Of a DNA stretch of 58,700 nt, positions 4,922-56,059 are shown one piece after another; the stretch's first letter is position 1, and each line of letters begins with the position of its first letter. The DNA lies in IMG/VR virus record IMGVR_UViG_3300022868_000021, positions 1 through 58,700 of that record, one strand, 5' to 3'. The notes under the pieces were generated by a model that saw nothing but the letters and a program-made list of their open reading frames with translations, did not search any database and had not been told where the DNA came from. Both the position numbers and the translations under genes were made by a program. The DNA comes from a virus.

Positions 4922-4953
4922 TTGACTTTTGGAAGGATATTTACTTATCTTTG
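4922..4953 (+). promoter_or_regulatory. Bacteroidota-type promoter
   Basis: TTGAC at 4922-4926 and TATCTTTG at 4946-4953, with 21 bases between TTG and the second box. This matches the -33 TTG and -7 TAnnTTTG elements of the Bacteroidota housekeeping sigma factor. Transcription would begin a few bases after 4957, ahead of the structured RNA. Confidence 0.75.
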
Positions 4954-4958
4954 TGCAT

Positions 4959-5128
4959 GTCTATTACATCAATACAAAAATATTTGTGGGGAAGTTTCCC
5001 TAAAACAAAAAGTTCTTTAATGTGGTGTACTAGGCATATTTCACATAGGGAACTTCCAACACCACAACTTTTCAATTTTCATATTACGCTAATACATTAT
5101 AGTCCTCCATAATAAGAGGGCTATTTTT
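4959..5128 (+). ncRNA. Candidate small RNA with two crossing helices
   Basis: The stretch between the promoter and the terminator has no reading frame but carries two strong complementary pairs in interleaved order. Helix A joins 4990-5002 (GGAAGTTTCCCTA) with 5046-5057 (TAGGGAACTTCC), 12 pairs with one bulged T. Helix B joins 5021-5028 (TGTGGTGT) with 5059-5066 (ACACCACA), 8 pairs, extendable by AAAAGTT at 5008-5014 with AACTTTT at 5066-5072. The order A-B-A-B means either a pseudoknot or two competing folds. The expected transcript is about 170 nt. The class is not recognised. The exact 5' end is inferred from the promoter. Confidence 0.6.
5099..5128 (+). terminator. Rho-independent terminator of the small RNA
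   Basis: Nine-pair stem (ATAGTCCTC at 5099-5107 with GAGGGCTAT at 5116-5124, one G-U pair), an 8-base loop and a run of five T at 5124-5128. Confidence 0.75.
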
Positions 5129-5169
5129 GTTAGTGGTGATAGCAATTCAAATACCATAATGATCACGTT

Positions 5170-5445
5170 AACCATGTACGACCAGATGAAAAGGTCAGTG
5201 GTTTGAGGCTTATGAGCTATGCTAAAATGAAGATGCATAGCCACGTTGATAGAGGAGATATAAGCTTGGGGTACACTGGATGCACTATATCGAGAAGTAT
5301 AGCCTTACATAAAGCATCAAAAGGGGATGACGCTAGTTGCAATCGACAGAAGGGATTCTGAGGATATTATTTTCAACCTCTGCTTTTGTAGGGGTTGGGG
5401 ATTCTACATAGGTTACTTCTCTCTTAAAGGGATGTAGAGGAGTAA
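5170..5445 (+). other. Structured non-coding stretch upstream of the radical-SAM gene
   Basis: This is the rest of the 4913-5474 gene-free gap. It contains a series of local stems: AACCA/TGGTT (5170-5174 with 5199-5203) enclosing GACC/GGTC (5180-5183 with 5193-5196); GCTATGC/GCATAGC (5216-5222 with 5235-5241); GATATA/TATATC (5257-5262 with 5286-5291); a 10-pair stem with a TTTT loop (5374-5383 with 5388-5397); and a 10-pair stem TTACTTCTCT/AGAGGAGTAA (5413-5422 with 5436-5445). No tRNA, tmRNA or intron core was recognised. It could be a second RNA gene or a long 5' leader for the gene at 5475. Confidence 0.45.
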
Positions 5446-5474
5446 GAAATTAATTTAACTTTAAACTAATTATT

Positions 5475-6164
5475 ATGTCACTCAATAAACAAAAAGGTAA
5501 TATGTATGACTTTATAACGCATACATGGAACACAGTAAAGGGTAAATGTCCACATGATTGTAGCTACTGTTATATGAAACGATGGAAAAATCAAAAATCA
5601 GTTAGATTTGATGAAAAAGAACTAAAAACAGATTTAGGTAATGGTAATTTTATATTTGTTGGAAGTAGTTGTGATTTATTTGCAAATGATATACCTAAAA
5701 AATGGATTTTAAAGACATTATACCATTGTTATCAGTATGATAATAAATATCTATTTCAGACGAAAAATCCAGAAAGAATTCTACAATGGAAACATATTCC
5801 AATATTTGAAAAATCAGTTATCTGTACCACATTAGAAAGTGACTCTTATTATCCTGAAATAATGAAAGCCTCACCTGAACCAATGCAACGTAGTATAGCA
5901 ATGCAAGAGATAAGTTTATTTGTTGATACTTATGTTACTATCGAACCTATAATGGAATTTCATTTAGAGCATTTTATTAAGATGATTAAACGTTGTAATC
6001 CAAAACAGGTAAATATTGGAGCAGACAGTGGTGGTAGTAACTTACCAGAACCTTCCAAAGAAAAAATTCTTTCTCTTATTAAAGGATTAGAAGAATTTAC
6101 AATAGTACATCAGAAACCTAACCTTAAACGATTAATACCATTGGTAAAAGATGGATCTATTTAG
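5475..6164 (+). CDS. Radical-SAM-like protein, phage Gp37/Gp68 (DUF5131) family
   Basis: 229 residues. An N-terminal motif C25-P-H-D-C29-S-Y-C32 gives the C-x3-C-x2-C cluster that binds a 4Fe-4S centre and SAM in radical SAM enzymes. The flanking sequence (THTWNTVKGKCPHDCSYCYM) is that of the phage Gp37/Gp68 family. The rest alternates strands and helices as in a partial TIM barrel (NFIFVGSSCDLF, YVTIEPIM, VNIGADSGG). The substrate of the family is unknown to me. The gene is A/T-richer than the ligase region downstream and follows the structured RNA region at 30 bases. Its last 14 bases overlap the next gene. Confidence 0.75.
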   Translation: MSLNKQKGNMYDFITHTWNTVKGKCPHDCSYCYMKRWKNQKSVRFDEKELKTDLGNGNFIFVGSSCDLFANDIPKKWILKTLYHCYQYDNKYLFQTKNPERILQWKHIPIFEKSVICTTLESDSYYPEIMKASPEPMQRSIAMQEISLFVDTYVTIEPIMEFHLEHFIKMIKRCNPKQVNIGADSGGSNLPEPSKEKILSLIKGLEEFTIVHQKPNLKRLIPLVKDGSI

Positions 6165-6384
6165 TAGTGTAGGAATAGACATAGACGCAATACCTAAAAC
6201 AAAAAACTCTAATGATATGATAGATACAGATAGGTATTGTACTATCTTTCACCTTTTGATGAAGTGGGAGACAGATATGAGTCCTTTCCTCTTACGTATC
6301 TACAATAAGTTTACCGAACAATCACAACACTTAATATTAAAAGATAACATAATACAACTATGGATACAGAAACAAAACCAGTAA
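6151..6384 (+). CDS. Hypothetical protein
   Basis: 77 residues, starting inside the end of the radical-SAM gene (14-base overlap) and ending inside the start of the SWIM gene (25-base overlap). Mostly helical, with a hydrophobic, Trp- and Leu-rich middle (FHLLMKWETDMSPFLLRIYN). No motif is recognised. Both long overlaps suggest compact packing in an operon; the exact start could instead lie downstream at the internal Met near residue 23. Confidence 0.55.
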   Translation: MDLFSSVGIDIDAIPKTKNSNDMIDTDRYCTIFHLLMKWETDMSPFLLRIYNKFTEQSQHLILKDNIIQLWIQKQNQ

Positions 6385-6617
6385 TATTTATTGATGACAG
6401 TCTAATGCTTCCTGACAACAGTCAGTGGGAAAAAAGATTTGAAGTAAAATCAGAAACCTCAGACAGAGTTTATATAGTAGCTCAGAACAAACAGAAAAGA
6501 CACTGGGCATGCAGCTGTCCAGGCTGGAAGAGATACCGTAAATGTAAGCATCTTCAAGAGATAGGATTACCTATCAATGAACAACCTCATGAAATAGAAA
6601 TCAAATCAGCATATTAA
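6360..6617 (+). CDS. SWIM zinc-finger protein
   Basis: 85 residues. The C-terminal part has C51-x-C53 followed by C62-x-H64 (WACSCPGWKRYRKCKHLQEI), the SWIM finger pattern C-x-C-x(n)-C-x-H. SWIM fingers bind DNA or protein in bacterial ATPases, plant regulators and WGR/MolR-type systems. The N-terminal half (residues 21-50) has a strand pattern (KRFEVKSETSDRVYIVAQN) that typically precedes the finger. It lies 10 bases upstream of a WGR-domain ligase, so a joint role in DNA-end handling is a reasonable inference. Confidence 0.8.
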   Translation: MDTETKPVIFIDDSLMLPDNSQWEKRFEVKSETSDRVYIVAQNKQKRHWACSCPGWKRYRKCKHLQEIGLPINEQPHEIEIKSAY

Positions 6618-6627
6618 AACCAATACT

Positions 6628-7677
6628 ATGAAAACAAGTTTATATTTTAGTTCTGGTGGATCCGATAAGGAATACCATGTACAGATAGATAATGGAACAG
6701 TTACCGTTCAGTATGGTAGAAGAGGATCTGCTCTAACGCAGCTAACGAAATGTGAAAACCTAGACCCCGTAAAAGCCGAGAAGCTTTATCAGAAAATCAT
6801 AAGAGATAAGAAAGGTAAAGGATATAGTGAAGGAGAGTCAGGTACTATCTATTCATCACCGGTAGATCCTAACCAGACAGGATACCAACCTCAGCTACTT
6901 AATGAGATTGACGAACCTACTATGAGACACCTCCTGGATAATGATGACTGGCTCATACAAGAGAAAGAAGATGGTAGGAATGCAGGACTTATCTATAGAG
7001 ATGGTAAAGTCATAGCTGCCAATAAAAAAGGTCTAGCGATCTCTGTACCGACTGATATAGTAAATCCTATAGTAGATATCTTTAAAGTAGATTTTACTCT
7101 CTGTGGTGAGCTAGTAGGTGATGTGTTCAAAGCCTGGGATATCATCAACCATCCTTATATCTCTCATACTGTTCCTTACATCAGTAGGTATGAATTCCTT
7201 AAAACACATACTGACAAGCTAGGAGGTAGTAATATCATGCTTACCAAGACTGCTATCACGACACTAGAGAAGCATAACCTGTATAATGAACTTAAAGAGA
7301 GAAATGCAGAAGGCATGGTATTCAAACTTAAACATTCTCTATATAGCCCTGGCAGACCTAATAGTGGTGGAGATCAGCTAAAGTTTAAGTTCACAGCTAC
7401 CTGCTCAGTGATAGTAGGTAAGAAGCATGAAGAGAAAAGGTCTGTTATGATGTGGATGTTCGACAAAGGAAATAGGATATTTGTTGGTAATGTTACTATC
7501 TATCCTAATCAGGAAATACCAAAAGAAGGATCAGTCATTGAGGTAAGGTATCTCTATGCTTACCCTAATGGTGGTAGTCTCTTCCAACCTGTATATCTAA
7601 ATCCTAGAAATGATGTAGAACAGATGGAATGTACTATGTCACAGCTAAAGTATAAAGCTGGACTTGTCACTGCTTAG
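6628..7677 (+). CDS. WGR-domain ATP-dependent DNA ligase
   Basis: 349 residues. Residues 1-70 form a WGR-like domain ([12 protein letters not shown], with the Trp of WGR replaced by Tyr). The ligase core follows: motif I K113-E-D-G-R117, where K113 is the AMP-accepting lysine; motif III CGEL at 159-162; motif IV EGMVFK at 228-233; and motif V LKFKF at 251-255. An OB-fold tail ends with [20 protein letters not shown]. The enzyme would seal nicks in DNA using ATP. WGR domains bind DNA ends in PARP proteins, so here it probably recruits the ligase to breaks. All catalytic motifs are intact. It lies between the SWIM and J-domain genes. Confidence 0.88.
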
Positions 7678-7679
7678 CT

Positions 7680-7988
7680 ATGAATGCCTTTACAGATAAT
7701 TATAAACGCTATGATCCGGAAAGAGAAGGATACGGTGGTGCTAGCCAGTGGAGAAGAAATTTCTACAAGAGAGTATCACCAGATGAAGCTACTAGAATCC
7801 TTAACGAGAAAGATCCTTATGAAATCCTCGGTGTACGAAGGAATACTACCAAAGAGGAAGTTAAAAAAGCATACCACAAGCTTGCTATGCAATGGCATCC
7901 TGACAAGAACCCAGGAAACATCAAGCAAGCTGAAGCTATGTTCAAGCAGATTAATGCAGCTTATTCACTATTAATATCTTATTTATAA
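7680..7988 (+). CDS. J-domain (DnaJ-like) protein
   Basis: 102 residues. Residues about 45-98 form a complete J domain: DPYEILGV, helix [12 protein letters not shown], the essential HPD tripeptide at 73-75 and helix [18 protein letters not shown] domains stimulate the ATPase of Hsp70 (DnaK). A charged N-terminal extension of 44 residues is present; there is no G/F-rich region or zinc domain, so this is a class III type co-chaperone that likely directs the host DnaK to a phage target. It starts 2 bases after the ligase stop. Confidence 0.9.
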
Positions 7989-8000
7989 ATAATAATAACT

Positions 8001-8477
8001 ATGAACATTGAAGATTTTAAAATGGATTCAGTTAAGATACTGAACGATGACGTATCAATTGTGTACCATACCAGTACCGATGATGCAAAGAGAACCTACG
8101 ATAAGAAGATCAAAGAGCTAAAGCCTCATCCTGACTTCTATGCTAAACTAAAGGCCTTTAAGCTTGATTACCTGGCTATCTTTGGATTCAAAGAAGAAGA
8201 TATGGAGTCTACTATCAAAGGTATCTCTGCTAACAAAAAGAATCAGATACAGATCAGTGGTATGATTAGTACTATGAATAACATACCTTGTAACCTGAAT
8301 ACTCCCTATGTCTCCAAAGAGTCAGAAGAGATGTCCTCAGAAGAAGAAGTCATCGATAAGAACCTGGAAGGACTCCGGACAGAAGCCTGGAAATATATTT
8401 GGGAGAGAAAGTCTAATCAGACAGAGATGGATTTTGATGGTGAAAAAAAAGAAGAGGAAACTCCTCCGGAAAAGTAA
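8001..8477 (+). CDS. Hypothetical protein with acidic C-terminus
   Basis: 158 residues. The first 100 residues have mixed strands and helices (KILNDDVSIVYHTSTDDAKR, then a Lys/Leu-rich helix). Residues about 105-158 are low-complexity and acidic (SEEMSSEEEV, then GEKKEEETPPEK), likely disordered. Such tails are common in ssDNA-binding proteins, but no OB-fold signature is recognisable, so this is only a thought. It follows the J-domain gene by 12 bases and ends the continuous run before the hairpin element at 8511. Confidence 0.65.
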   Translation: MNIEDFKMDSVKILNDDVSIVYHTSTDDAKRTYDKKIKELKPHPDFYAKLKAFKLDYLAIFGFKEEDMESTIKGISANKKNQIQISGMISTMNNIPCNLNTPYVSKESEEMSSEEEVIDKNLEGLRTEAWKYIWERKSNQTEMDFDGEKKEEETPPEK

Positions 8478-8510
8478 TTTGTTATGTTGTTTAATTAATT
8501 TAGATGTGTA

Positions 8511-8600
8511 GGTTAAAACTGAGGCCTGAGAGACACGATAGTCCTTTTTCAGTAGTTTACTCATAGAATAAACGAAAGTCTCGTCAGGCTTCTATTAACC
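8511..8600 (+). other. Large imperfect hairpin in the intergenic region
   Basis: GGTTAA at 8511-8516 pairs with TTAACC at 8595-8600. Inside it GAGGCCTGAGAGAC at 8521-8534 pairs with GTCTCGTCAGGCTTC at 8578-8592 (one bulge, one mismatch-like position). A small inner stem GTTTA/TAAAC lies in the terminal region. There is no T-run after it, so it is not a standard terminator. It sits between the gene ending at 8477 and the start at 8618 and would be in the 5' leader of the latter. Confidence 0.55.
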
Positions 8601-8617
8601 TTTAAATAAGACCATAT

Positions 8618-8917
8618 ATGCCATACATAGACAGAACAGTTAATAAAATACCTAGTAATGCCATAAAAGCATCCTTAGATGATGTATCAGAACTCTATAA
8701 TGATCACTGTAGAGATAGAAAGCACAAAGAAGTAACAGTATATTGTAAGTCTACCATCACTGACCTCATCCATAAGTATAGGCTAAACGACAACTGGCAG
8801 TGGATAATACCCTTTATAGAGATAGGTAAGTGCTATGTGGTAAAGAAAAAACCCTCCTCAGCAAAGCCAAAGAGGGTAAAACCCAATACTACGATAAAAG
8901 ATAAATTACTATTCTAA
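8618..8917 (+). CDS. Hypothetical protein, last plus-strand gene
   Basis: 99 residues. Helical N-terminal two thirds (NAIKASLDDVSELYNDHC, then TDLIHKYRLNDNWQWIIPFI) and a basic tail (KKKPSSAKPKRVKPN) that could contact nucleic acid. No family is recognised. Its 3' end overlaps the last minus-strand gene by 9 bases in a tail-to-tail arrangement, and the terminator of the opposing operon lies inside its last 70 bases. Confidence 0.65.
   Translation: MPYIDRTVNKIPSNAIKASLDDVSELYNDHCRDRKHKEVTVYCKSTITDLIHKYRLNDNWQWIIPFIEIGKCYVVKKKPSSAKPKRVKPNTTIKDKLLF
8846..8877 (-). terminator. Terminator of the minus-strand appendage operon
   Basis: Read on the minus strand, ACCCTC (8877-8872) pairs with GAGGGT (8856-8851) around a 15-base loop and is followed directly by TTTTT (8850-8846). 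It lies just after the stop at 8909 and inside the coding end of the opposing gene. Confidence 0.65.
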
Positions 8918-12974: not shown

Positions 12975-15900
12975 CTAATAATCTGATTCTTTAACATCTC
13001 TGATTCCTAAACTAGGGAATGGGTCACTAATAGATCCTATAGCTGTTCTGTATTTTAGAATGTCTTTTACCTTCTTAGGACCAAAAGTAGCATCAACAAT
13101 ATCTAGTAAAATAGAAGTTACAGGGAAAGGATTTAAGAACCAGTCATAAGAAATCATCATCATATTAAGATCTTTGTACATCCAGTTTAACTTGATAAGC
13201 TTTTTGTCATTATCTTTTCCTACCACAGCTCCACTAAGAGCAATTAAGAGAGAAAATACAGCAGTCTTAATAACAGTACGTGCTAAATTAAGTCTTCTCA
13301 TAGGAGTCTGATTTTTCCACCAGGAGTCTAAGCCTTCATTCCTCATATTGGCTATTCCCTGTACAGCACCTACGAAGCTCTGCCATGCACCTTCTATCTC
13401 TATCCAATCTCTCTGAGTAACCCACTCACCATTTTCTAACTGTATTGCTTTAAAGCCTGCTCCAAAAGAAGTTTTTCTTGGAGATGCAAAAAGACCTGCA
13501 TTCCATATTTTATCTGCTGAGAATACTCTAAACTGAGAAGCAGCAGCACCTAGATAGTCATTACCTAATAACCACTTAGCAGTATTGTCCATACTACCTA
13601 TAATAAATTTATCTCCATACCATTTTAATTGTTCTGAAGCTAGGGTATGATCATGTCCTCGATCTACTTTGGTAGCATCTTCTTCCATAAGACCCTGATC
13701 CTTTAACCTATTTTTAAGACCGTTTGGACCTTCTACTAGTACCTCTTGCTCTTTAGTCTGGGTACCATCTTCATTATAATATCTTTCGTCTTTTTTGATA
13801 TCATACTGTATGTCTCCTTTTTCATTAAGAGAATAAGCATCCCAACTACCCTCATGAATCATCCATCCTGCCATACCTACTAATCTAGCTTCTGCATCAG
13901 AAGCCCAGTTAGTGATATGAGCCCACTGATCATTAAGAATATTCCCTTTGTTAGCTACATTAAGCCATGGACTATCTATAAGGTCTCTTTCTGTACGATT
14001 TACTAACTGGAACATAGCACCGAGTCTTCTAGCTTTTTTGAAGTTAGTAGCTACTTCATATCTTGCTTTATTAACATCTCCTGTAGTAGGCAGATAGATT
14101 TTTTGTGATTCATCTAATCCTATATTTGCAATAGAGGCAGCTAAAGCATTTATCTGTTCACTCATTTCATTCCATATACCTGACTTAGCACCTATAGTCC
14201 ACTTGTATCCTAGAGAGATCATACTGAATGCACTAAGAGTAGCTCTAGCAAATGTTTTAACATCTACTGTTACCCCACCGGGAAGAGTGATCTTAACAGA
14301 AGTATCTTCATTCTTTTTCATAGCTAACCTATTGCTAAACATTTCAGCAAATCTTCTGTTGTTTACCATGAAGTCTTTAGAGTTCTTAGTAGATTCAAAG
14401 TATCCATAGACAGCATCTACATCATTAAAAGCAGGCATATATCTATTTTCATATTCTTCTGTGCGGATCCCTTCCAATGTGTAATAGTTAATTATCTTCT
14501 CTAGGTTCGTACTTGCTAGCATATTTTTAGATAAGTCTGCTACCGTTAAGCCATTCTTAGTATATAATAGTCCTGCTTGTTCATAAAGCTTATCCTTACT
14601 ATTCATCTGTGAAGCAAAAACATTACTGATAGTATTCATACCGCTAGTGAAAGCCATACGACTTTTATCATTTAAGTTGTCATCGATAAACTCATCATAG
14701 TTAACAAACCTTTGACCCATCCTATCCCAGGCAGCTTTGAAGTTCCCTGATAACAATGTTTCATTTAGTCCTTTAGAGATAATAACCATAGTTCCCTTTT
14801 CTACAGATTCATCAAACTCTTTAGCAACCTCTGCCTTACTGATCTTTGAATTACCGAAAACATCTTTACCTTTTATATCACTTGTTCTACTATGATACCA
14901 GTTATCGATAGTCCTCTGACGGAATGTCTTCCATACTACCTCCATCAGTGCTTTGTCATCTTCATTATGCTTAGGATTATTAAAGTCTAATATAGGAAGC
15001 ATTATAGGTACAGTCTCCCCTTTCTTATAGGTTTTAAGACCTACCTTCTGGTCTTTCTCAAGGGTAAGGGTAGTGTGCTTAAATAAATGCTTATAATAAA
15101 CACTACCTTCATCTTTAATTAGTGTTTCAGCAGCTACCTGTGGATGTAAAGCAATATAATTTTTGGCTACTTTCTGTGCTTTATCATATATCTGATTATG
15201 TATCTTCATGTAACGATCTACGACTATAGAATTAACAAGTCTACCTTTAGATACTAGCATCTGTAAAAGATCATCTCTTACATTGTGGATAGGTACAAGA
15301 TTCTTTTCGAACTTATTCATATCCTTGATAGAGTTTTTAAAGAAAACAGCTCCATAGCTTTCAAGTTCTAAGATACTCATAGAGACAAGAAGATCTTCAT
15401 GATCTTTTTCTTTTTTATCTCTATTCCTGCCCCGTAAATCTTTCTGCAGTGCTCTTAATGCTTTTACCTGATCATGAACAGTAGTATTCCTATCCATAAA
15501 TAGCGTTGAGAGGCTTTCTGCTCTATTGACATATCCATATCCATACTTGCGATATCCTTCATCATCCATAACTTTCTTTAGATACATCTGGAACCTTCTT
15601 ACGAAAGACTGTTCGTATTTTGTACTATCAGAGATTTTCTTGTCTGTGAATATATCTTTAACATCATCATTAACTAGGTTATTTAACCATTCATCTTGCT
15701 GAGACAGTACATTCATATTGCTAAACATATCCTGGATGTCTAACATCATATAAGACTTAACATTGCTAGGTTGTATTTCTAGCACTCCCATGCCTCTGAA
15801 CTTAACCTTACCACCACTAGCCTTCATCATGTTCATTATAGACATAGAGAGGATAGCTCTTCTGATATCGTATGCTGAGTTACTCCAAGTACCACCAGCT

Positions 15901-18900
15901 TCTATAAACTTATTATCTGTCATCATAGTACCTAACAGTCTATTCCTATTTGCCGGTGCAAAAGGAACTTTGTCTTGTAAGGAGAAGGTAGTAACATCAA
16001 GGATAGAGAGATCTACAGTACCATCGTCTTCGATACCGTGAATGGTAATCAGTGGATCAAAGCCTTCAAAGGCGCTATTGTATAATGCCCTGACAGCCTT
16101 AATATCGCTGTTTTTAAGGTCACTATACTTCATTACAGTTTCAATCTTATCACCCAGGCCAAGATAGAAAGCCATATCTGTTACAGCTTTCTCGCTATAT
16201 ACATTACCAAAGGCCTTTTTAGCTGCATCATAGATAGTTTCCTTCTGGTCTATCACTAGGTTAATAAAGTTCTGTACATTGTTCTTATAGGATACCTCGA
16301 AAGAGTTAATATGAGGAACAATATCTTTTTCTATAGCAGCCTCTAGCTGTTCATCAGTCATCGTATTAGGATAGGCAAAAGTCTTATCTAAGCTATGGAA
16401 GACATAGTTACCTGCATCATCGGTATAGCTCTTCATCTTATGAAGTGTCGTTCTTACAAATTCTTCTGTGTTAAGCTCACCCATAGTATGTCCATACTCT
16501 GAATAAGGATTCACTATAGCTGCAAAGTCCTTAGTGGTATTTACTCCTTCTTGTAGGTAGAACTTATTACCTTCTTCTAGGGACCTGTAAGCGTCATCTA
16601 GCTGCCATATGTCATAGTTTACTGGATCAGTACCGTACGTTTGCCTACCAGTCTCGAGGAGGAAGTCTGAGACCTTACCTTCAGTGAATATCTTATCTAG
16701 CTTCTTCCTAAAAGGAAAGAATAGATCATGAAGTGAATTGTTAACAAGTGTGTTGATAGAGGTTGCTATATTCAGTAAAGCATCTAAAGAGGTATTATCA
16801 GTAAAAAAGTCTCTGATACTCTCTTTAAGCATCACCTTCATAGCTGTATTCCTGTTGATTATCTGTGAAAGGATGGCCAGTACCTCATGAGTTACATCAC
16901 CATCGGTAGTAGGTCTATTGTGTTCTTTAAGCTTTCTTACTACATGGTCACGGATAGGTTCTATCAGCTTATCTCCATTGTTAGCAGAGTCTATGATAGT
17001 GTTCTTAATAGTATTCCAGGTAGCAGGATCATTCATTATCATTATCCCATTCCTGAAATGCTGAAACTCATGGACAGGCATAGTAAAAGAGAACTTCTCT
17101 ACATTCATATGTATACCATCACCGTCAAACATTCCAGAGGCTCCTTTTAAAGACTCAGTAGTACCTTCTGTAATAGGTACTCCTGTTACTTTTTCCTTTA
17201 AAGCATCCATCCACCGTTGTGCTGCCTTAGTTGACAGTCTACCTAGACTATGCTTTTTAAAGTCTATCATAGTATAGCGAGTCATAGACCCTTCTTTGCC
17301 TACATACTTGCTTAAAGCACTCATAGACTTGTTGACAAACTTCTGTGCTTCTTCGGATCCTTCTATCTCTCTTACTAGTTCACCTTCTACAGTAGCTATA
17401 AACTCACTGTCTCCTTTCTTAATTTTATACTGTGCTTTTTGATTCTTCTCTTCCTGCTGTTTAGCTATCTTAATCTGATAGTTTTCCTTAGCTTGCTCGA
17501 TCTGTTCTTCTGAGAGATCAGCTTTCACCCAAACAACGTTCGTTGGCTGTATTCTGAGGGCTCTGATCAACGTTCCCTCCTCAGTGGTATATAACCCTTC
17601 CAGACGGTCTACGTTCATATTAGCGTAGCTGTGTCCTCTGACATATGATAATGGTACCTGCTGGTTGTCTAATAGAAGATCTAGCTTCTCAGGACTCATC
17701 TTTACTATCTCCATAGTAGAAGTCATATCCTTGACAGTATCAAAGCCACCTCTCTCACCGATTAGATATTCATAGTCGTACTTCTCAAAAGCATTACCGA
17801 AGAGATCCTGATCATTTTTTATCCTGGCAGTGAAGTTAGCAGTAAACCTCTTAAAGTCTTTACGCTTCATAATAGTCTCAGGGAAGATACCTAGGTCTCT
17901 AGCCTTACGGGTGAGGAAACTGCTCATACCCTCTTTATGCTGTACCCACTTGGTAAACCTCTCTACAAGGTCGGTAAGCCTATTCATATTCTTAGGCATC
18001 CACTCCATCTCTGCCTTAGTCATCTCAAGACTCATAGCTAAGCCATCTTCACCATAGTAGTGTTCTGTACCCATGATTTCATTGATACTTCCTTTACGGT
18101 AGTTAAAGCCTGTATTGATAAGCTGGTTGACCCTGTATAGCTCTTTTAGGTATTTAGGTAACCTGTCGAATTCTATAGCTAGATCTGATAGCTGCTGCTC
18201 GCTGAGGTTAAAGGCATCTGCTAGCCTGATATATTCTTTCCCCTCTTGTCCTTGCAGAACAAGGTTAGCGATAAACTTATTATTCTTGATAGCATCATGA
18301 AACTCATTGGTATAGTCTATCCCTATAGCCTGTATAGCTCTGGAAGCATCACCGAAGTTCATAGTAGACATACTCCTGATAAGGTCATGAAACTGTGGGA
18401 ACTGCCTTACAAAGAGTGTCCTTCCTTCTACATTATCTAGTGCTACCGTCTCGTAGTTAGACTCAGGAGAAAAATAGTTACCATCAATATCCTGAAGAGG
18501 TACTGCGATGTTAAACTTCCTTCCAGTAAATGATCTCTTAAAAAACTTATCCAGGAACAACTGCTGCATACCAGACTTAAAAGTATAAAACTGCTTTGCA
18601 TAGTTAAAGACATTGTTAAGTTGTCCTTTCAAATAGTTAGGAGCAAAATAATCCCAGATCACTTTGTTGTCTTCCAGGAAAGTCTTAGAAGCCACCTCTC
18701 TCTGGTTGTTGATCTCATTATAATAATCTTTAAAGTGTGTGCGTCTTACAAATTCAGAGATGTTAATAGCCTTGGCTATTTCTAGCTCATAGTCCAATAA
18801 TTTCTCTGCTTCATTGTTAGCTTCATCAAATTGTGAAGATATAAGCCTGGAATATTTATTATCCAGTTTCTTAAAGTTCTCTATATGACTCTCTGCATTC

Positions 18901-21900
18901 CACTCAGCACCTTGCATAAACTCCTCGTAAGTCATCCCTAGATACTTAGAAAGCTCGTTCTCTGCCTTATAGAGGTCAAAGTCCATTACTGGTACTCCAT
19001 TGCGTAAAGCTACAAAGCGAGTCATCCTACGTAAAGCTTCTGCTGTGAAGACGTATTTTTTAAGCTCTGTAAGGACCTGATAGTTTTCTCTTCTCTCCTG
19101 CTCACTCTTTATAGCACGTATGTCTCTGGACAGCTCTTCTATAAGATTCATGTCCGGTGGAGTGTTCTCATCTACCTTTTCAGCTTCAGTAAGTTTTGTC
19201 TCTAAAGCTTCTCTCTTAGAAAGTAAAGATTTGTTGCTGTCAGTATTTTTACTTCTCTCGTTAAGGACCATCTCTTCAGCTACCAGTTCATATACCTGTT
19301 CTGCCTCAAAAACTTCTAAGCTGTTCTGGAAACTTCTTTGTGTATAGATCTTCTCTACTACAGGATGTTCGAAGAATGTAGCTATCTCCTGGTTGCTCTT
19401 ACCGTCAGCAGTCATTACAGCTACCACGGGAACAGCTTCAGCAGTGATACCTAGCCTACCTAATACAAGCTCTTTGGCATTATCTAAGGCTACCTGCATC
19501 CAATTACCTAAATTGATAAATGGAGATGTGCTCCACTGCTCTTCGTCAAACAGTGAGAGGTTTCTTAACCCCGGAGCATTATTTCTGATAAAGGTCTTTC
19601 CTAGCTGTGCCAGGTAAGAGACTCCTGAGAGAGACATGGCCAAGATACCTATAGCCTTGTTACCTTCACTAGCAGTTTGACTACTATCAAGGTAAGAGGC
19701 AAAATCATTATCTCTTCCATACTTTCTTTTCTTTTTATCTACAAGTTCCTTTAAGCCTTTTACATCTGACTTAATAAATATCTTACTAGCATTAGCAGGG
19801 TCCTGGTATACATTGTCTATCTCATCAAGGATAGCGTTACGAGCACCACCCTCTCCTTCGATAGCTAACTTACCATCAGCAAACTCTCTCATATATACCG
19901 TTAACTGGTCAATATCCTGGTCAGCATTGTTACGGATGTTCATCTCTACAGGAACATAAGCTGTGTTACCATTGTCATTGATAAAAGCTGTGATCTCTAA
20001 TATAGAAGCACTGCCTAACCTATCTGCAGGTACACGACCTGAATATACTTTTAGAGACTCTTTGAAGTTTCTAAAGTAAGACAGTGGATCTTCTGGACTG
20101 TTTCTAAATATAGGAGAACTCTCTTTGTTGATAACAGAGCCACCTTCAGCTAAAGTCTGTAAGAAGTCTATAAACTCATCATCGTTTAGGTTACGTACAT
20201 TCCAGGATAACACTTCTCCATTAGCTTCTGCTTCTATAGTAAAGACATCGTTAAGAGTTTCATCATTCTTTATACCAAACTCTCTCATGTAAGGATAAGG
20301 CATTACCGTCTGTCCTCTCTGAATACCTTCATTGCCAGCAGTCATATCTTTTAAGTCTGCAGGAGTATATCCGAGATCTATAAGGTCTTCTACTGACTCT
20401 ATAGTGCTATTGGTAAACCGTTCTATCTCTTGTAGAGTATAAGGAATCCCATTCTCATAATAAAGCTGATAACCATAGGAAGAAGACTGGTTTACACGTA
20501 AGCCTTTAAAAGAGGTACGTATAGCATTGTCGTTTACAAAACTCCTATAAGCCTGTTTTAACTTCTGTGCTACTTCAGGAGAATGTATAATGCCAGGGTT
20601 GTTGATAACATTGTTGATAAGGTCAGTGTATCCTGTGATAAGACCCATCTGACGTATAGCCTGTAAGCCTCTCTCTCTGAGGAAAGAAACAAACTTCTCT
20701 ATATCCTGTTCGTTAAAGGCTGCTTCTGGTTTGTTAGCCTCTATACCCATCAAAGTATTTATCCTAGCCTTACTCATAGTATAAAGCTCTTCTTGTAATA
20801 TCCTTATCCTCTTACCTCTGTTTAGGTTACTAGCACCTATGCCCATATAGGATAGATTCTGTGAAGGAGGAGCCTGTCTTTGTACCTTGTTAGTCTCTTG
20901 GTATGGATTTAACACTATACGCAGAGAAGAGTTGTCAAAATCTCTTGCTATGAGATCTTTCTCTTCAGAAGAGTAAGGATCATACATGTTCACATAGTTG
21001 ACAGTCTGCTTCTCTATAGTCTCATCAGCAAATCCTCTTGGAGTACGAGCCTTTATCTCTTCAGAGAAGTTACTCTCTTCTACGATCCAGTCTCTTAGGT
21101 TCCTAAATGCTTTCTGTGCATCCCTGCTACCAGCATGACCTGTAGCTTCATAAAGTTCTTTGAATTTAGCATAGAGGTCTATATCATAGTTCTCAAAGTC
21201 TTTTCTCATAACCTTTGTGACATGATCTAATAGATCTTTTTGCATCTGACGTACAGGAAGTGTCTGTTCGTAGGTCTGAGAGCTGAAAAAATTCATAGAC
21301 TCTTTTTCCTGGTACTGATCACCATACTGAAAATCCATACGATTATCCAGAGTCTTGACTCTTGTCTTGTCAATAGGACCATACTGATAATCTATACCAC
21401 TTTTCTCCATAAAAGATTCCCAGAGCATAAACCCATTCACACCACCGTCATCATTTTCTATCCATTCACCGGTCGTTGCATCTTCTTTGTACATGGTACT
21501 AACCATTATCTCCTTACCCATAGCAGGGAGACCATATTTAGTATTTACTACAAGCTTACTACCACCAGTTGCTTTAGATCCTGATCTCTTAACCTTATCA
21601 GCAGCATCTTTATGGTTCTGTACATTACCAAAGGCAAACTCTCCTACCGCATTGTTAACGATATGGTATGCATAGAAGTGAGCTTTGTAGACAGGATTCC
21701 ATATTATATTCTCTGTAGTAGTTGTGACTGTGATAGGAGTCTCGGAAACACCATAGCGATTTGCTGAAATAGACATCTCTTCCATGTGCTCTTCCATCTT
21801 CTCTGTATAGAAGTAACCCATCTTACCTTCTATAAGGGTTTTTACGTCGTTTTGTTGACGATATCCTATTTGTGATAGCTTACCTGCATATTCCCTATAT

Positions 21901-24900
21901 AGTGGAAAGAACAGCTTATCTCTTTCAGTCTTGTTTAGTAAGGCAAACCTTTCTCCATTGTTAGAGAACTTCTGATAGTTGTCATGGTTATAGATAGCTT
22001 CATATCCAGGTACCTTAAACAGTATAGAATTACCGAGTGTAACAGTATTACCATCTAAGAAGTAATCTTTGTTCTTACGTAGTCCAGAACGCATTAGGTC
22101 TATAGCCTGCTCATCGGTGAGAGTCTTAGAGAAAGATTCTAGGCTTTTAGGATTAAAGTTCTTTAAGTCTTTAACAGACCATAGCTCTCTAGGAAATACT
22201 TTGGTAAGGTTGTTAGCAGGTATCTCTCTGGCAAATTTACCCTGGGACATCTGCATCTCTCTGTTAGCTCTCTCAAATTCTATAGCGATACCATGGCTTA
22301 TCATCTTCTCATCTACATTAGCTGAGGTGATATTACCATTAGAGTCTCTATCTATGTTTATCAGTCTTCTTCCCTTTCCAAAGGAGAAGTCAGTATTAGT
22401 AATATATGTTAGCTCTTTATCAGCTATATTAGTCATAGTAAGAAAGATATCCTGAAGCTTATCAGTAGACTTACGTATACCTTCTATGAAATTAGCAAGG
22501 TTTATAGTAGCTAGATCTTTAGAACCAGGCTTTACAATACCTCTATTACCTACACGCAGTCCATTACCTATAGTGAGGCTTCGTATACGGATACCTTTAG
22601 GATCAGCTATCCAGTTAGTCCATTTGCCTTTAGTATTCTTCCAGATAGAGTTATCTAGTATTTCTTTAGGCATATTATTGATCTTATCAGTAAGCCACGC
22701 AGAACCATCCCCGAACATATCAAAGACCCAGGACTTCATCTTAAATCCCCAGGCTTTAGTACCATCAGGTCTATTGGAGAAGAGATCGGAGTCTATACCC
22801 TTATTATATACTTCCAGTGCTGCTATCACACCAAAGGCATTATAATAGTCTACAGGCTTATAAATCTTAACATCACTCTTAATAGTCTCTACGTTGTTAC
22901 CTGCAAAGACTTTCTCAAAACCATCTATAGTGCTATCGGTGATGTTCATCTTCTTACGAAAGGAACTCATCTCTTGGTTGAAAGGTACAGATAGTTCTTT
23001 TATCTGCTTAGCTTCTTGCTTTTTTGCTTCCTCTTCATTAATAGCTTTATTGTCTAGCTTACGCAATATACCCTTGTTGATAGTCTCTATCTTGTCGAGC
23101 ATGGTAAGGTTAGAAGACGCAGACCAGAACATATTCATAAAGGTCTCTGCCAGGAAGGTATTAGTGTTCTCTAAGTTATACTCAGGAGTACGTTTGTTCA
23201 GCTCTACCCTAGCACCTTCATGGTGCATGTTGTTATACATATTGTAGATAGTCTGGTCAGTGACGTTCTTGAGTCCTATAAAGTTCTTGATGTATGTGAG
23301 TATCTTATCTCTACTGTCGTTGTCATGGAAAGCCTCAGTGAAAGAGATCTTACCGTCAGTATAAGAGATGACTTTTATCTTCTGCTTGTTCTTTACATAG
23401 GAGATACCACTAGAAGTAACTTCAAACTCTGCATTCTTACCACTGCCTAGTCTATCTTTTACATGCTCTCTGAAGCTCCGGGTGTCTTTGTCATATAGTG
23501 TCTGAGAGATGCCATCGATAATCTCTTTCTTCTTGTTATCAAAAGTATTCTCAAAGGAGTTAACAATATTATATACCGTCTCGTCTCCTGACTTCTTAGA
23601 CTCTATAAAAGAAGACTTAGGCCTCATAAAAGAAATATTATAGGATATCAGTGAGTTGATAAAGTCTGAGAGGTCACTCTGGATATCTAGCTTTAGCTGA
23701 GACACATTGCTTCTACCGTCACTCTTGATAAGCTCATCGATACTATTTATCCTATTGCTTAATGAAGGTTTACCTGTGAAAGCTTCAAAGAACCTATGAT
23801 AGAAACTAAGGATGTTACTACCCTTATAGGTGTCAAGTCCTGCCTCAGTAGCTAAGTTATAGAGTTCCTGAGTAAAGGCCTCTACTGGATTCAGTGAAGG
23901 ATCTTTTAGTAGCCTGTTAGCTACACGCATCCCTGCATCTTTCAGAGACTTCTCAAGGTCCTTACTGTTCACAAAGGCATATGCATCTTTAGTATCCCAC
24001 TCGTTGCGTACCAATCTCCCATTGCTAGAATAATAGTACTGATGAAACCTAGTAGCATTTATCTGCATCTTCATAAAGTCACTCTTAGTCTGGTCAGGAT
24101 TTGCATCATCCCCGGCTCTGTTATACTGAGTAGACTGCTTATTCCATTTGTAGAAGCGACCTGTCTCTGGGTTATACCCTGGCATAAGCCTTACTATAAA
24201 AGAAGTGAATATTTCTTGGTTAGCTAACCTAAGCCACCCTAGATTTCTTCTCTCTACTATAGAGAGTTTCTTTGCATCGTCATCAGTGATCTGGCTGTAA
24301 GGGATACCTACAGAGGTAAGCTCATCAGCAAACTCATTACCATACTCTTCATACTCTTTCTGTACATCTTTGATAGCTTCTGTCATAGGTACTACCTTGT
24401 CAACAGATAAATCAGAAGAGAAGAAAGTATATTGTATTACTGCATCAGCTACAGCATTGAGATACTTGTTAATGTCATTACCAAATACCTTATATTGATT
24501 ATTGAAGATCTCTATATAGTCAGTGTTAGGAGTATCATCTTTAGCGAATCCATCTTCTGCCTTATGGTTAAAGTTATCAGCCTGGTATTCGTCAAGCTCA
24601 CTCTCTCCTTCCATTCTTACAATGTCTCTACCACCATCATGTACTGGTTGTACATTTCTATAGTAACCGTGATCCATCTTATAAAATAGCTCATCGAGAG
24701 TATTTACCCTCTTAGTATATCCATTAAAGAGCTTGTTTACAAAGTCTACAAATCTACTCCATAGTCCTTGCTTAGGCTTTACAGAGTCTAAGTTTAGTCC
24801 TGAATAGCCATAGTCTCTTGCCATCCACTCTGTAAGATAGTCTTCAGTAGCATTAGGAAGGCCTAACAGTTCCTTTGTGGCATTATAGAGCCTCTGACGA

Positions 24901-27900
24901 GAGTTCTCATCAATTAGGTAGTCGAATACCAGATGAAAGAATTCGTGCTTAGGAGTAGTGTATTTAATACCTTTTTTATACAAGGCTAGTTTTATCCTAC
25001 CATTATACATTAACCCGTGGATGTCCATACCGTCAAACTGAAGGTTAGGAGTAATATCATTCTTTACCTGTTCCCAAATAGAAGGGTGAGCTATCTTTTC
25101 GAATAGTTCTCTTACCGCAGCTACAGTTACAGTACGTGGCTCTATGTTATCAGTCTTTATTTCAAACCTAGGTCTCTTAGCACCTTTCTTACTTGCAGGT
25201 CCATCTGAACTTTTAGGAGTCTTATTAGTAATTTCTTCGTTAACGTCAACAAGTCCATCAGTAGATATATTTACATATGGAAAGTGTATAGCCTCTGCAC
25301 TGGTAACGATATTCTCCATCTCACTAGGTGATAACTCTCTGGTACTTGTGCTTAGGTCTATAGTATACGGCTGGTATAGTTTGTCTATCTGTAGTCTTAG
25401 GTTCGCTGCCTCACCGGTAACGTCATCTTTATATAGCTCTGTCACCTGGTCCAGGAATGCATCTAGTACGTCAAGCTTTATCTGTGCATCGGTACGTACA
25501 TTGTCTGAATCTAAAAGGAAGATATCTCTGTTTACCCTTACATTGACTCTACCACCTACCTTTTCAAAGTAGGTACCAAAGAAGTCGTTAAGAGCTTTGT
25601 TATTAGTAATGATGCTTAGGTTTTGTGCGAAGACATTCTTCCAGAACATCCTGTTAAGTTCACTACCAAAGAAGCTATCCTGTTCAGAGGCACGGATATC
25701 TTTTAGGCTCTGCTTGTCCTCTTTGATCTTCTCATGCATCCTCTTAGAATTCATCTTCCCAAGGTTGTTAGTCTTAAAGATCACATAGGCCTCGTTAGCA
25801 GTACTGTTTACATCACCTTCAGAGAACTTATACTTTAAGAGTAGTCCTACCCTACCACTACCATAGAATGTCTGTACTATCTTATCAGAGAAAGTAACCA
25901 TTTGTCCGGAAAGTGTATTCTCTATATGAGCCATAAACTCAGCAAAAGTTCTAAGAGGACCTTTGTTATAGATTACATTACCCTCGTTGATATCATTTTC
26001 TAGTATGATCTCTCCAAAGCTGTACTCATCGGTATTAGAGTCATATCCTTTCTTTCTCAGAGAAGCCTTATAGTAGTTAACCTCTTTGTTAGCTGTATGG
26101 TGTTCTGGGCTTAGCTCCATGCCTGTATAGCTACTGTCAAAGCCTTCAGATATCTGTCGCTTTATATTCTCTAAGGGCTGTGAGTAATCTCTTATCTGCT
26201 GCTTAGCGTATCCTGCATCAGTCTCCCCCAGAGAAGCTATATATTGATTTCTTTGTAAGATCTCTCTTTCATTACTTGTAAGAGACTCTTCGTTGATAGC
26301 ACTAACCTTAATAGCTAGCACGTTGTCAAAGTTCTTCCAGGTACCAGTATTTCTATCTTCCATCAATGCTGACTTTAGATATACTAGCTCAGAAGTTACC
26401 TTTCTCTTATAGACCATGTTTAAGATAGACACTCTATCCTTACGTAGCTGATCCATATTTACATCAGCTGACGAAGTGTTAAAGACACTATAGATAGTAC
26501 CCCAAAGCTTGTTACCGTTAAGCCACGCCTTAGCTTGTCCTGTGAAGAACGTCTTACCACTCTCTATGTCATCAAGGTCAGTAGTCTCTTTAGGGCCACT
26601 GCGAAGGGTATACTCTTTCTCAAAAGTGTTAAGATCTATCTGCTTGCCACCGAGGTATATTTCATACTCTACCACACCATCAGTAGTTTTCTCTATAATA
26701 GAATCTATGATATAGAAGTTTCCTGTAGAGACTTCATCAGCTACAGCACCTTTAACGATGCTTGGCTTTCCTGGGTACTCAGTAAGATACTTGTTAGTAG
26801 TATATCCGGGAGTAGGTGCAGGAGTCTTGACTATAGGATCCAATATTCCTAGAGCTACCTGTGACTCTTTACCAAAAGGTTCTGCTAAAGTCTTGGTAAG
26901 CTCATTATAAGCTTTATATTTCTGTCCTGTAGCAAAAGAGTCTGCTGTCAGGTCTTTCTGGTTCGTTACACTCTGGGTAATCTTAAAGAAGGCACCAGAA
27001 TCATCTCCTTTGTTGATAGTATAGATACCGTTCTTACGGAACTTGTGAAGGATAGGAGTAGCTATCTTAGTCTTTACCTCTTTAGGTTTCTCCTGTGGCT
27101 TGATAGCTGACTCTATACCTATGTTCTTTAGATACTCATTCATATCATTATAGATATCAGAAGTATCAAGTACCTCTTGCTGACCATCTATCCACCATGA
27201 AGGCCTCTGTGTAAGATTTAACCCTTCTGAGCCTACCAGACCCATAAAGCGAGAAGCTCTCCCTACAGCTGTATAAGCACTGTTAGAAGCTACAAATTCT
27301 TTTAACTCTTTACCATTGTATTTATATCCCCAGCTATTGAGGTTTACTGCCATGTATACTTCATCTTTACGAAGACCTTGGATGCTTGGAATCTTCCTAG
27401 GCATCACATTGGTTGCAGGATCAGACATCAACACATATACCTGTCCCTGGAATTCTGTCTTTAGGTTACCATGCTTGTCAAAGAGCTTTTCAACTATCTT
27501 CCTAGTTTCCTCTTTGGTGTTAGGATCTTTTAGGAGTGCATCTATCTGTTCTGAGTTTAAGAAGACAAGAGCACTGCTTACACTCTCTGGCCTGGACAGT
27601 GCATCACTGATAACACTATCTACAGTATTATAATATTTTCCTCCCTCTCTTCTAGTTATCCCTACTGCTTCATATTCGTTGACATACACTTCAGGATAAC
27701 CCATAGAGTTATTGTCTAGTCTGTTCCTAAACGCTTCTGCTAGTCTTTCGATAACAGGATTGCGAGTGGTGAACTTAAACATCACCGGGAACGTACGAGC
27801 ACCCGTCTTCTGTGCATAGGAGATATTGTTCTTAGCATCAGGAGGCATCATCTGTGAAGCATCACCGAGCCATATGATCTGAAAGCTAGGATCGGTAGTA

Positions 27901-30900
27901 TCTTCATTATAGTTCTTATTGATAACTTGTAGGTTGTCTTTACTAAGCAGAGAAGCCTCATCGACTATCATACCTTCATACTGATTAGGGTTTTGTACCT
28001 TACCACCTATGAAGTCTGCCATAGAGATATTATCAAATACCTGATCAATACCTTCTAAAGAACTGCTTAGCGTATTTAGTACCTCCTGGGTATGGTGTAC
28101 CAATAAATATTTTCTTTTAGGATCTTTTTTAAGCTGGTCTCTGATAGCTATAGCTTCAGGAATCATATGCTGACTCTTACCACCTCCAAAGTCTCCTCTC
28201 ATAAAGATAGAGTTAGCCATAAAGATATCTTCTTTCTCTGACACCTTCTTTATATGTTCACTGTTGTTAAATTCTACCTCCCTGACGATCTTGAGCACAT
28301 CAGCATTATGTCCTAGCAGTTGGTTTACCACCATATTCACACCCATCATCTGTTCGAAGGTAGAGATATTCTGAGCCGTTACATTGACTTTAGACCTTGC
28401 ACCCTGAAGAGTATTGATGCTCTCTCCATTAAGAGCCATGAGGAAGTTTACCAGGTAGGTATATCCTTCATGAGTCTTATATACATCATTGACACTATTT
28501 ACCTTTAACAGATTATAGTAATAGTTAAGAGTCTCTCCTACCTTAGTATAGTCAGGAGCATTGAAGTAAGCTGAGTTGTATCTGAACTTCTTAGCAGCAA
28601 GTAGCCTGTTTATAAAGTCATAGTTCACTAGCTGGTCACTGGCACCCTGCATCTTTACAAAAATGTCATGTAGCACCTTCTCACTGTTTAACAAGTCTGC
28701 CATCTCCTCTACACCCGGAGGAGTGTTTTTATCCTTTTGTTCCTGGGTAAGGTCTTTAACATCTTCTAACAGTTTCTTAATATCAGGAACGAGCTCTTCC
28801 ATCATGGTAGGATCCATCTCATAGAAGAGAGTCACTACCTGCTTCTGAGCATTGATATGTCCTTGACGTAGCTTGATCTGGAAAAACTTACTAGCTTCTT
28901 TAGCTAGCTGTACACTGTTACCCATAGTATCGAGATCTATCAACATCTCACTTACTTGCTCTCTGCTATTCCTTAGCTCTGACTCACTGACATAATATTT
29001 ATATGCAGGTAGCTCTTTATTCTTTGAAGGTTCTAGCTTAGGATGATCTGATCCTTTAGAGAAGAAGAACATTCCTTTATCAGCAGTCTTCAGAGCATCT
29101 CTAACAGCATTGATAGACTTAATCAAAGAGGCTGCAGTAGACGGGTTAAGGTCAGTACTTGTCTGCTCCCTGAAGTTATCCACCCTAGCCCTCATCTCTT
29201 CGAGAAACATCATAGGTACATTGTCATCATTGCTTAGCTGTCTTATCTTCTCTGTATTCTCATCTACAAAAGCATTCTCTGATAGCTGTGTAATAGCATC
29301 TATAGTTTCCCTGGTAGTATTAAGCTGATCTTTTACATCTTCATTGGTAGGATCAGTAGCATATTCATCGTTAAGTTCTTTCTCAAGTTGTTCTAGCTGC
29401 TTCTGATATTTAGCACTTTCTCTTATTGCCTGGATCTGCTCTTCATTACCCTGTGCAGGGATACCAAAAGTAATTTCTTTAGAGAGAGCTATTATTGCCT
29501 TGCAGACACCCTCAAACCCCTTCATAAGGTCTTTCTTTGACTTTAGCTTAGAAGCTTCACCTACGGTAGTAAATAGGTCTTTGTGGGTAACTACAGTCTC
29601 ATTGTTACTCTTTACAATCTTCTCTTGCTTTTCTATTTCCTGAGTCTGGTATTCTGTGAGCTTCTGTGAGAACTCTGTAGCTTTCTCATAGGTATCTAAA
29701 TGATCCAGGATATTCCTTTTGTATTTAGTCTGGTACTTCTCTGACTTCCGAAACTTATCGGTAAGCTCTGTACCTTCATTCTTAAAATGTTCATCAGAGA
29801 CATTCTTAGCATAGAGTAAAGCACTATACTTCTCTCTGATAGCTTCATTATATTTCTTACTGTATTTTGTGTCTGCACCTTCAGGAACAGTATACTCTTG
29901 TATAGCTTGAGAGACAACACCTAGCTGCTCATCGATCTTAGCTATCTGTGCAGCATCTTCCTCGGTAGCCTCTTCCTTATTCTCTAATGCTAGCTTCTGC
30001 TCAGCAAGACCTTTATAGGATACGATAAGATCAGTAAGTTCTTTCTGCATGAGCTTACTCCTACCTATAGCCTCAAGTACTATTGGGTTGTCAATACCAA
30101 AATCTTTAACGATACCTTCAAACATATCCATAGACTGCATCATACCCTGATATGCAACATCATTCATAGAACCATCAACACTCTCAGGATTTTTTATTTC
30201 TCCTTCAGTAGAGATGTAATTTGGACCTAAAGACTCTTTGTTATATAGATCTTGAGTAGCCTTTCTTAGCTTATCCATCTCACCAGTTACACCATAATAA
30301 CCCATAGTATAATCTGCCATAGGATTCTTGCCGGCACCCATAGTGAGTCCCATTGTAATACCACCCATAAATCCTGCTACAGTAGACTCTAGTACATTAT
30401 CTCCTATCCTATTAGATAAGTTCTCTAAGTAACTCTTATTAGCATCTACAGGACCAAATAATCCTTTTCCTGGTAATAATCCATTCTCTCCATCATATCT
30501 TATCTGATCATGGAATGTCTGCATAGAGTTCTCTATCATCTGCTGAAAGAATTCTTCTGTTCCTTCTTCACCACCTGCTAAGATAGTTCTAGCAAATATA
30601 GTTTTCCCCTCAGAAATAGCTTTGATAAAGCCGTGCAACCATAATCTTTTTTGTGTCTTTGTACCTTCTTTAAGATTCTTTATACCAAATTTTTTCATTA
30701 CCTTTTTAGCTGCAGTTAACCTTGCTGCCTTATCTACAAAATAACCTGATCCTCTAGCAATAACATTTCTGCCTATAAATCCTTCTGTAAATGTCTCAGA
30801 AGCTACCTGTATAGGATACATCCAAGCGATATCAGCTTCCTCTATCCCCATATCTCTAGCAGTCTGTACAAAGTGATGGCCACTCATTAATCCAAAGACT

Positions 30901-55800: not shown

Positions 55801-56059
55801 AGTCTCCATTAGGATACCAGATAGCATCGATACCGTCAATCATCATATCACCACCAGGAGCAATAGCATCTTTTACAGTATATCCGTTCATACATCTGTC
55901 TATCTGCTTACTCCACCATGCAACATCTATAAAGTAGTTTCCTTTCTTGAGAAATTCCTTATCGATAGTCTCAGGAGTCTTGTGAAAATAATCCTGTGGA
56001 TCAGGAAGATCTTCTTCAAAAACAACTGGACTGAATCTTTTACTATTAACGAATTTCAT
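52808..56059 (-). CDS. terL: Terminase large subunit with intein
   Basis: 1083 residues before splicing. The ATPase half has a terminase-type Walker A, KCRQIGISEKG around residues 158-168, a Walker B FVVWYEE at about 255-261, and a coupling motif FIGTAGEMDEG near 293-303. The nuclease half begins with the metal-binding strand GCDSYDQDEA, but this is split by an intein occupying residues 474-870. After removal the protein is 686 residues, normal for TerL. The enzyme drives ATP-powered DNA packaging through the portal and cuts the concatemer. Downstream order of portal, scaffold and capsid genes confirms the call. The intein separates the active-site Cys-Asp strand from the ATPase half, so splicing is needed for nuclease function. 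Confidence 0.9.
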   Translation of the reverse strand: MKFVNSKRFSPVVFEEDLPDPQDYFHKTPETIDKEFLKKGNYFIDVAWWSKQIDRCMNGYTVKDAIAPGGDMMIDGIDAIWYPNGDCYIPLYDLLIKDRTVWISGRHYFYLNFWPIYGTKKGSKSKGLTNPRFLGMDFFFAMRVEMMFDQNKDGQELKCRQIGISEKGAGMVIGYNYTFYPDSQNLIIGGVQADADHTMQRTIEGLDNLANTQFYKERKRGGDSKKYVKAKNYGAEIYSLTAKNDFQTASRFSPFVVWYEEIGKGVKGWSLEVAKYIDPSIETEGEKTGWQFFIGTAGEMDEGIYDLELRHYNPEEYNILSFDNVFEKENPDQSVKVGHFTGKDWYLKVDEDGNPLRRESRMDILRRRSLKKPEDRYKFITQRPIYASEAFLTTVAGFFGEYKIQLLNARKTQLRTKKELQVVRTGRLEFIEGTNWKKGFKFEPDETNGWLKIIEEPELDEKDHHYRGLYRGGCLLPGEKVITNDGLKNAENVFENDKLVNEYGDYVEIQNFFKRMKIDSDVYTIKSGNTFRTNTVTEEHPVLITKPKFHSDKTVNEDAFDFSYEQAKDINVGDWTRVPNLYNKESKDLIMCSLWDDENCRIDRRIDNPLFDKDFWWFVGLWLGDGYCDNHYKKISISINSKESFYLKKLEEIVLRLFNRKVSCRKRNGSTECTFSISQLNLFLTKHFGKYSYGKRIPEWAKYIKKDLKRSLMLGYLDSDGCISKHLRGYYNIQYISVNLELLESIQDIGFSLGIVSSLCKLRDASVHIFPGNPKKSKTRECYQLRFTHHDTLNLVEQLDCKNDLKIQRIDFKNLPKVRRRPKDSCFLSADNRFIYFKIKNIEKEKYTGTVYNFECDTHTYIGHHIGYHNCDSYDQDEAHTSKSKGAMYIKKGFNPYKKESVANLYVAQILERPSVEHGGAEAFYLHCAMAGIWFGCFGNINIEYSNLRIFQWFSDHGYDFLLKERPRLAFAGMIGKSQVSNRYGTDRALKPQILAIGSSSLTEDSINNMYFIEMVVALAQYRYDPSGKKYNCDITIAFCETEVGMKEDELIPVTKVDAHKETDKKGFLVYKRSANGISSKFV
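53450..54640 (-). other. LAGLIDADG intein inside terL
   Basis: 397 residues (474-870 of the precursor). Splice block A is CLLPGEKV, with Cys1 as nucleophile; block B is TVTEEHPV; the endonuclease blocks are LWLGDGYC and LGYLDSDGC; the C-terminal blocks are GTVYNFECDTHTYIG and GYHN, with the terminal Asn followed by Cys +1 of the extein. All residues needed for splicing are present. Both LAGLIDADG helices keep the key acidic residue, so homing activity is plausible. Base composition is visibly A/T-richer than the flanking terL sequence, in line with acquisition as a mobile element. Confidence 0.92.

Follow-up and report, generated by a model that had tools for sequence, protein, structure and literature searches.

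A putative boxA leader with its own promoter and terminator upstream of a DUF5131 operon in a relative of crAss-like phages

The transcription unit and the genes around it

In the window, that is, the whole 58,700-nt stretch of viral DNA analysed, a promoter, a structured non-coding region and a terminator follow one another on the plus strand between positions 4922 and 5128. The promoter (4922–4953) has TTGAC as its -33 element (at 4922), separated by 19 nt from the -7 element TATCTTTG (4946–4953), and transcription is expected to start near 4957. These elements agree with the Bacteroidetes consensus of -33 TTTG and -7 TAnnTTTG (PMC7366714). Searching the window for TTGAC-N15-21-TAnnTTTG gave 3 occurrences, all 3 intergenic, with 0.5 expected; three were reached by only 3 of 200 shuffles. 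The promoter of host type claimed in an earlier note on this DNA was thus confirmed, by its fit to the consensus and by its intergenic recurrence, and is of the Bacteroidota type. The other two such promoters, at 12974–12944 (-) and 50147–50117 (-), are located immediately ahead of minus-strand genes.

The terminator with a T-run, also claimed previously, is present at 5099–5128 and is of the ordinary intrinsic type, with a 9-bp stem and an 8-nt loop (hairpin 5099–5124) followed by the T-run. Based on the positions of promoter and terminator, the terminated transcript (4957–5128) is predicted to be about 168–172 nt long. The same note had seen no reading frame here. A frame of 51 codons is in fact open from the ATG at 4957 to a stop ending at 5112; in codon usage it scores -0.25, the same as the non-gene ORF median (-0.25), compared to -0.02 to +0.25 for neighbouring small genes, and no protein family matched it. 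The frame was therefore rejected as a gene, and the region is non-coding in effect. A search for tRNA and tmRNA found none. Judged from the sequence, a unit with its own promoter, a predicted non-coding transcript of about 170 nt and an intrinsic terminator is real.

Behind the terminator lies a further untranslated structured leader of 346 nt (5129–5474, +; fold z -2.05), in which an ORF at 5203–5361 shows no coding signal. Such an untranslated stretch is uncommon in this otherwise densely packed genome. A second pair of crossing helices within it was not above shuffles. The first gene past the leader (5475–6164, +) encodes a DUF5131/radical-SAM-like protein, with matches to Pfam PF07505 (2e-06, slightly below the cut-off) and PHROG 2045 (6e-11), and opens an operon extending over 5475–8917. 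Within this region, 6628–7677 encodes an RNA/DNA ligase fused to a WGR domain. The 346-nt stretch itself lacks a TAnnTTTG promoter, and apart from the one at 4922 no good promoter of the Bacteroidota type was found for the operon at 5475. Because of these two properties, together with a boxA-like site within the 518-nt untranslated leader before the operon (see below), the unit may be the leader of the operon. The previous claim of an independent regulatory RNA gene holds as to a self-contained unit giving a structured non-coding RNA, and the operon leader is the other live reading.

The main rival to a boxA leader is a free-standing phage sRNA gene, which we regard as possible although on balance unlikely. 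Here the RNA of about 170 nt, ending at the terminator, would itself be the product and would act in trans, either through base pairing to mRNAs of the host or phage or through binding of a protein; the boxA-like site would be coincidental, and the 346-nt stretch would be expressed by transcription from upstream. Its own promoter and terminator do flank a structured non-coding RNA, and most northern-confirmed sRNA candidates of B. thetaiotaomicron likewise had a mapped start plus a terminator (PMC7366714). However, the 346-nt untranslated stretch and the missing second Bacteroidota-type promoter for the DUF5131 operon would be left unexplained, and no conserved family or homologue of such a gene was found.

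The virus record is 58.7 kb in length. Matches to PHROG families 6681, 6547 and 11589 were obtained for the terminase, portal and head proteins. Comparison of the terminase and portal with Crassvirales proteins revealed a distant kinship, at about 22–28% identity; on this protein similarity the virus is a crAss-like relative, related to the gut crAss phages, and it probably infects a host from the Bacteroidota. The large terminase gene (52808–56059, -) carries an apparent intein with a homing-endonuclease-like part: the terminase-family match ends near residue 470 and the next part is matched by other families. One reading frame of 6381 aa (12975–32120, -) occupies a third of the window and contains, as judged by eye, helicase-like and metalloprotease-like stretches.

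Several records carry the capsid or terminase at 100% identity, but the locus was present in just one of them, IMGVR_UViG_3300022890_000019 (74.2 kb). That copy, the sole other one found, is 100% identical, which leaves zero sequence variation. An 18-bp minisatellite at 13–318, open as a repetitive frame, apparently differs in copy number between the two records. Homologues were also sought through the terminase, the major capsid protein, the RNA-ligase neighbour and, in viral contigs and genomes, the neighbouring DUF5131 gene. None of these searches gave a diverged locus; what they returned was either this virus again, in other records, or DUF5131 genes lacking a leader like 4957–5474. Searches with the DNA against phage records and 395 Bacteroidota genomes gave short, chance-like matches only. 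Eight of these alignments were viewed in context, of which seven were in long open frames and one was upstream of an apparent RNase P RNA. The pattern GGAACTTCCNACACCACA gave chance matches in viral contigs, with the remaining arms absent. These searches thus yielded no diverged homologues that would show conservation of the fold or of the boxA-like site.

Predicted folding of the transcript

The 172-nt transcript was predicted to fold at -36.1 kcal/mol, compared to a mean of -24.6 kcal/mol for shuffled sequences (z -3.35), and none of 200 shuffles folded as well. Two helices reported earlier, A (4990–5002/5046–5057, 12 bp with one bulged U) and B (5021–5028/5059–5066, 8 bp), both exist. The minimum free energy (MFE) structure is nevertheless a single long imperfect hairpin spanning 4984–5067, in which a lower stem (4984–4989/5062–5067) lengthens helix A and helix B is unused. 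Its 5′ arm (4984–5002) comprises the lower stem and arm A; its 3′ arm (5046–5067) comprises the second arm of A (5046–5057) and a segment, 5059–5067, which pairs with 4984–4989 in the MFE structure or else with B. The 5′ arm of B, TGTGGTGT (5021–5028), is the alternative partner of 5059–5066, and formation of helix B requires displacement of the lower stem.

Without the terminator, the nested MFE structure has -24.3 kcal/mol. In shorter transcripts (89–101 nt), a different helix was predicted, in which a 5′-end arm (4957–4971) pairs with 5023–5037 over 14 bp with one U-C mismatch; this early fold competes with A and B, at -22.1 kcal/mol versus -24.3 kcal/mol for the later fold. A third competing helix, C, joins 5010–5025 to 5041–5055. 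The lower-stem extension of A, the 14-bp helix at the 5′ end and the third helix had all been overlooked before. From the interleaving of A and B, either a pseudoknot or a switch between two folds had been proposed. The pseudoknot is not needed, since the lower stem takes the place of helix B in the nested MFE structure, but a rival fold within about 2 kcal/mol does exist. Refolding of the RNA between competing structures is plausible according to these models, and on prediction alone a switch is indistinguishable from an ordinary ensemble.

Such competition might serve a Nus-independent attenuator, in which the 5′-end helix versus helix A versus helix C would control the DUF5131 operon through termination or through the binding of a protein. 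In its favour are two folds that exclude each other and lie within about 2 kcal/mol, and the crossing helices, which outrank nearly all windows of the genome (about second of 3254 by a crossing-helix statistic picked after the site was seen). On the other hand, no good antiterminator was found for the terminator arms, the best being a weak pairing overlapping three bases, and no relatives were found for covariation. We consider this attenuator improbable.

Both A arms are near-palindromic (GGAAGTTTCC and GGAACTTCC), and the motif GGAAGTT(N)CCC has no further occurrence in the window. These features raise the alternative that the pairings have no RNA function and represent two near-palindromic DNA sites, operators for example, or chance in AT-rich intergenic DNA. 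The fold z of -3.35, which none of 200 shuffles equalled, and a promoter and terminator in register with the fold argue against this, and we give it only a slim chance. Mimicry of a CRISPR repeat or tracrRNA, an idea taken from the terminal GTTGTGG/CCACAAC ends, was considered and set aside, there being no positive evidence for it.

The boxA-like site and boxA strings in other phages

The 18-nt stretch left unpaired between arms A and B (5003–5020) contains a match to the boxA of rRNA leaders, AAGTTCTTTAA, at 5010–5020 (+). In bacteria, boxA serves as a tag through which RNA polymerase is kept transcribing across the rRNA genes. The letters of the site are AAGUUCUUUAA, including GUUCUUUAA. It was through chance-like RNA matches of AAAGTTCTTTAA to Bacteroidota genomes that the string was noticed, and boxA was recognised after the fact. 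In the regions upstream of Bacteroidota 16S rRNA (30 loci), boxA reads AAGTTC[AT]TT[GA]A, and the majority of the leaders examined contain it with no more than 2 mismatches. When a weight matrix built on 22 of the leader sites was applied, position 5010 ranked 4th of 117,380 window positions, with about 0.005 such sites expected per 142 nt; the other three top-scoring positions are all inside genes. The site also agrees at 10 of 11 positions with GYTCTTTAANA, a gamma-proteobacterial consensus (PMC5725501).

The site begins about 53 nt past the expected start, close behind the promoter, and is predicted to be single-stranded: its mean probability of being unpaired is 0.77, it ranks 7th of 161 in accessibility, and it is unpaired both in the MFE structure and in the 5′-end fold. 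Rfam searches at gathering and relaxed thresholds gave no credible family and no score above the gathering threshold. The earlier statement that the RNA matches no nameable class is thus true for Rfam, but the boxA match points toward the nut/rrn-leader kind. We regard 5010–5020 as a boxA-like, candidate NusB/NusE site, which is a supported lead and not a demonstration.

The canonical boxA string AAGTTCTTTGAAATNTTG had matches in 77 viral contigs. Among distinct phage matches, 27 of 50 were outside ORFs (of 80 aa or more), whereas the string in reverse gave 3 of 15 (Fisher p 0.037). In several contigs (L175, L184, L224 and L237) boxA comes after a TAnnTTTG promoter, and in several others (L182, L189, L201 and L203) it was seen by eye between or after tRNA-like sequences; many non-genic strings precede untranslated stretches of 200–900 nt. 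The type of promoter and of boxA suggests that these contigs belong to Bacteroidota phages. Two DUF5131-carrying contigs, L151 and L160, have boxA-like sites in untranslated leaders. Further non-genic examples within the series L175–L251 are L184:2096, L224, L231:777, L233:6781 and L238. Leaders are similar to one another within two groups, L184/L228/L247 and L176/L214/L230/L233/L241/L244, which may be undescribed RNA families. Four boxA leaders compared with named phages gave no match, and no description of boxA in Bacteroidota phages was found in the non-subscription literature covered.

The extended variant carried by the window, AAGTTCTTTAATGTKG, was non-coding in only 4 of 68 distinct matches, one of them being the present locus; by this count the exact extended form is no recurrent leader element. 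An intrinsic terminator after boxA was seen in 0 of 19 other boxA leaders checked, and no recurrent anti-boxA was found in other leaders. That this variant is not enriched in non-coding DNA, and that no other boxA leader checked has a comparable terminator, both favour the free-standing sRNA gene.

A short terminated RNA that exposes a boxA-like site and is transcribed from a promoter of host type could also act as a decoy, titrating NusB/S10 and so weakening antitermination on host rRNA during infection. No precedent for a decoy was found in the literature searched, and the boxA of other phages is located in tRNA operons and long leaders, a setting that speaks for a role in cis; we think a decoy hardly likely.

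Possible read-through into the DUF5131 operon and comparison with known systems

The best-supported single mechanism, to which we assign a probability of roughly 40%, is a boxA leader in which termination is the default and Nus-modified polymerase reads on into the DUF5131 operon. This reading is preferred because it explains the promoter, the accessibility of the boxA-like site and the length of untranslated sequence up to 5474. The host-type promoter would start the leader transcript, and the RNA would fold into the long imperfect hairpin, or the rival 5′-end fold, with the site at 5010–5020 mostly unpaired. Unaided polymerase would halt at 5099–5128, freeing the RNA of about 170 nt. Host Nus factors might instead load on boxA, NusB with S10/NusE and then NusA and NusG, and the polymerase so modified would clear the terminator and the next 346 nt of structured leader and transcribe the operon (5475–8917). 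From what is seen in the sequence, namely the promoter, predicted fold, terminator, lack of coding signal, boxA match with its predicted accessibility, and recurrence of boxA in non-coding phage DNA, we infer NusB/NusE binding at the site, read-through, and regulation of that read-through.

The terminator right behind boxA is the weakest point of this mechanism. When no phage protein such as N takes part, boxA and the Nus factors have an established action on Rho and not on intrinsic terminators (PMC5725501). A scan of a subset of the window proteins plus ten proteins mostly from the upstream region recognised nothing N- or NusG-like, N proteins being short and fast-diverging. The boxA leader is a supported lead rather than a demonstration because of this action on Rho, the 4 of 68 non-coding matches of AAGTTCTTTAATGTKG and the 0 of 19 terminators. 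A wider proposal is that Bacteroidota phages commonly place a host boxA ahead of long untranslated leaders or tRNA arrays, and that this crAss-like relative has made of it a terminator switch, choosing by Nus loading between the RNA of about 170 nt and the DUF5131 operon; taken as a whole, it is doubtful. Little is known of how crAss-like and other Bacteroidota phages control their transcription. If these phages do use boxA leaders, their expression would be tied to the ribosome-making machinery of the host via a short, recognisable sequence.

Among known systems, the boxA of Bacteroidota rRNA leaders, the NusB/NusE site of rrn antitermination, has in common with the phage unit the core AAGTTCTTTAA, an untranslated leader behind a promoter, and structured RNA after it. 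The phage unit differs in not being rRNA, in having an intrinsic terminator after boxA, and in its post-core bases (TGTGG), which fall two short of the usual GAAATATTG spacing. Lambda-type nut sites, which combine boxA with boxB and work with the N protein, likewise have boxA and an adjacent hairpin in a phage leader before a terminator; unlike them, the phage unit has no defined boxB, and no N-like protein was recognised among the proteins searched. The order here is rrn-like, hairpin then boxA, with the MFE structure placing boxA within the hairpin loop. In boxA-regulated mRNA leaders such as suhB (PMC5725501), boxA also lies outside rRNA in a 5′ untranslated region, but there it represses expression, and the organism, fold and terminator arrangement are unlike those of the phage unit. 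Bacteroides intergenic sRNAs such as GibS (PMC7366714) share with it the TAnnTTTG promoter, short length and intrinsic terminator. The present unit is different from these in that it belongs to no sequence family, is phage-borne, bears a boxA-like site and stands at the start of an untranslated leader.
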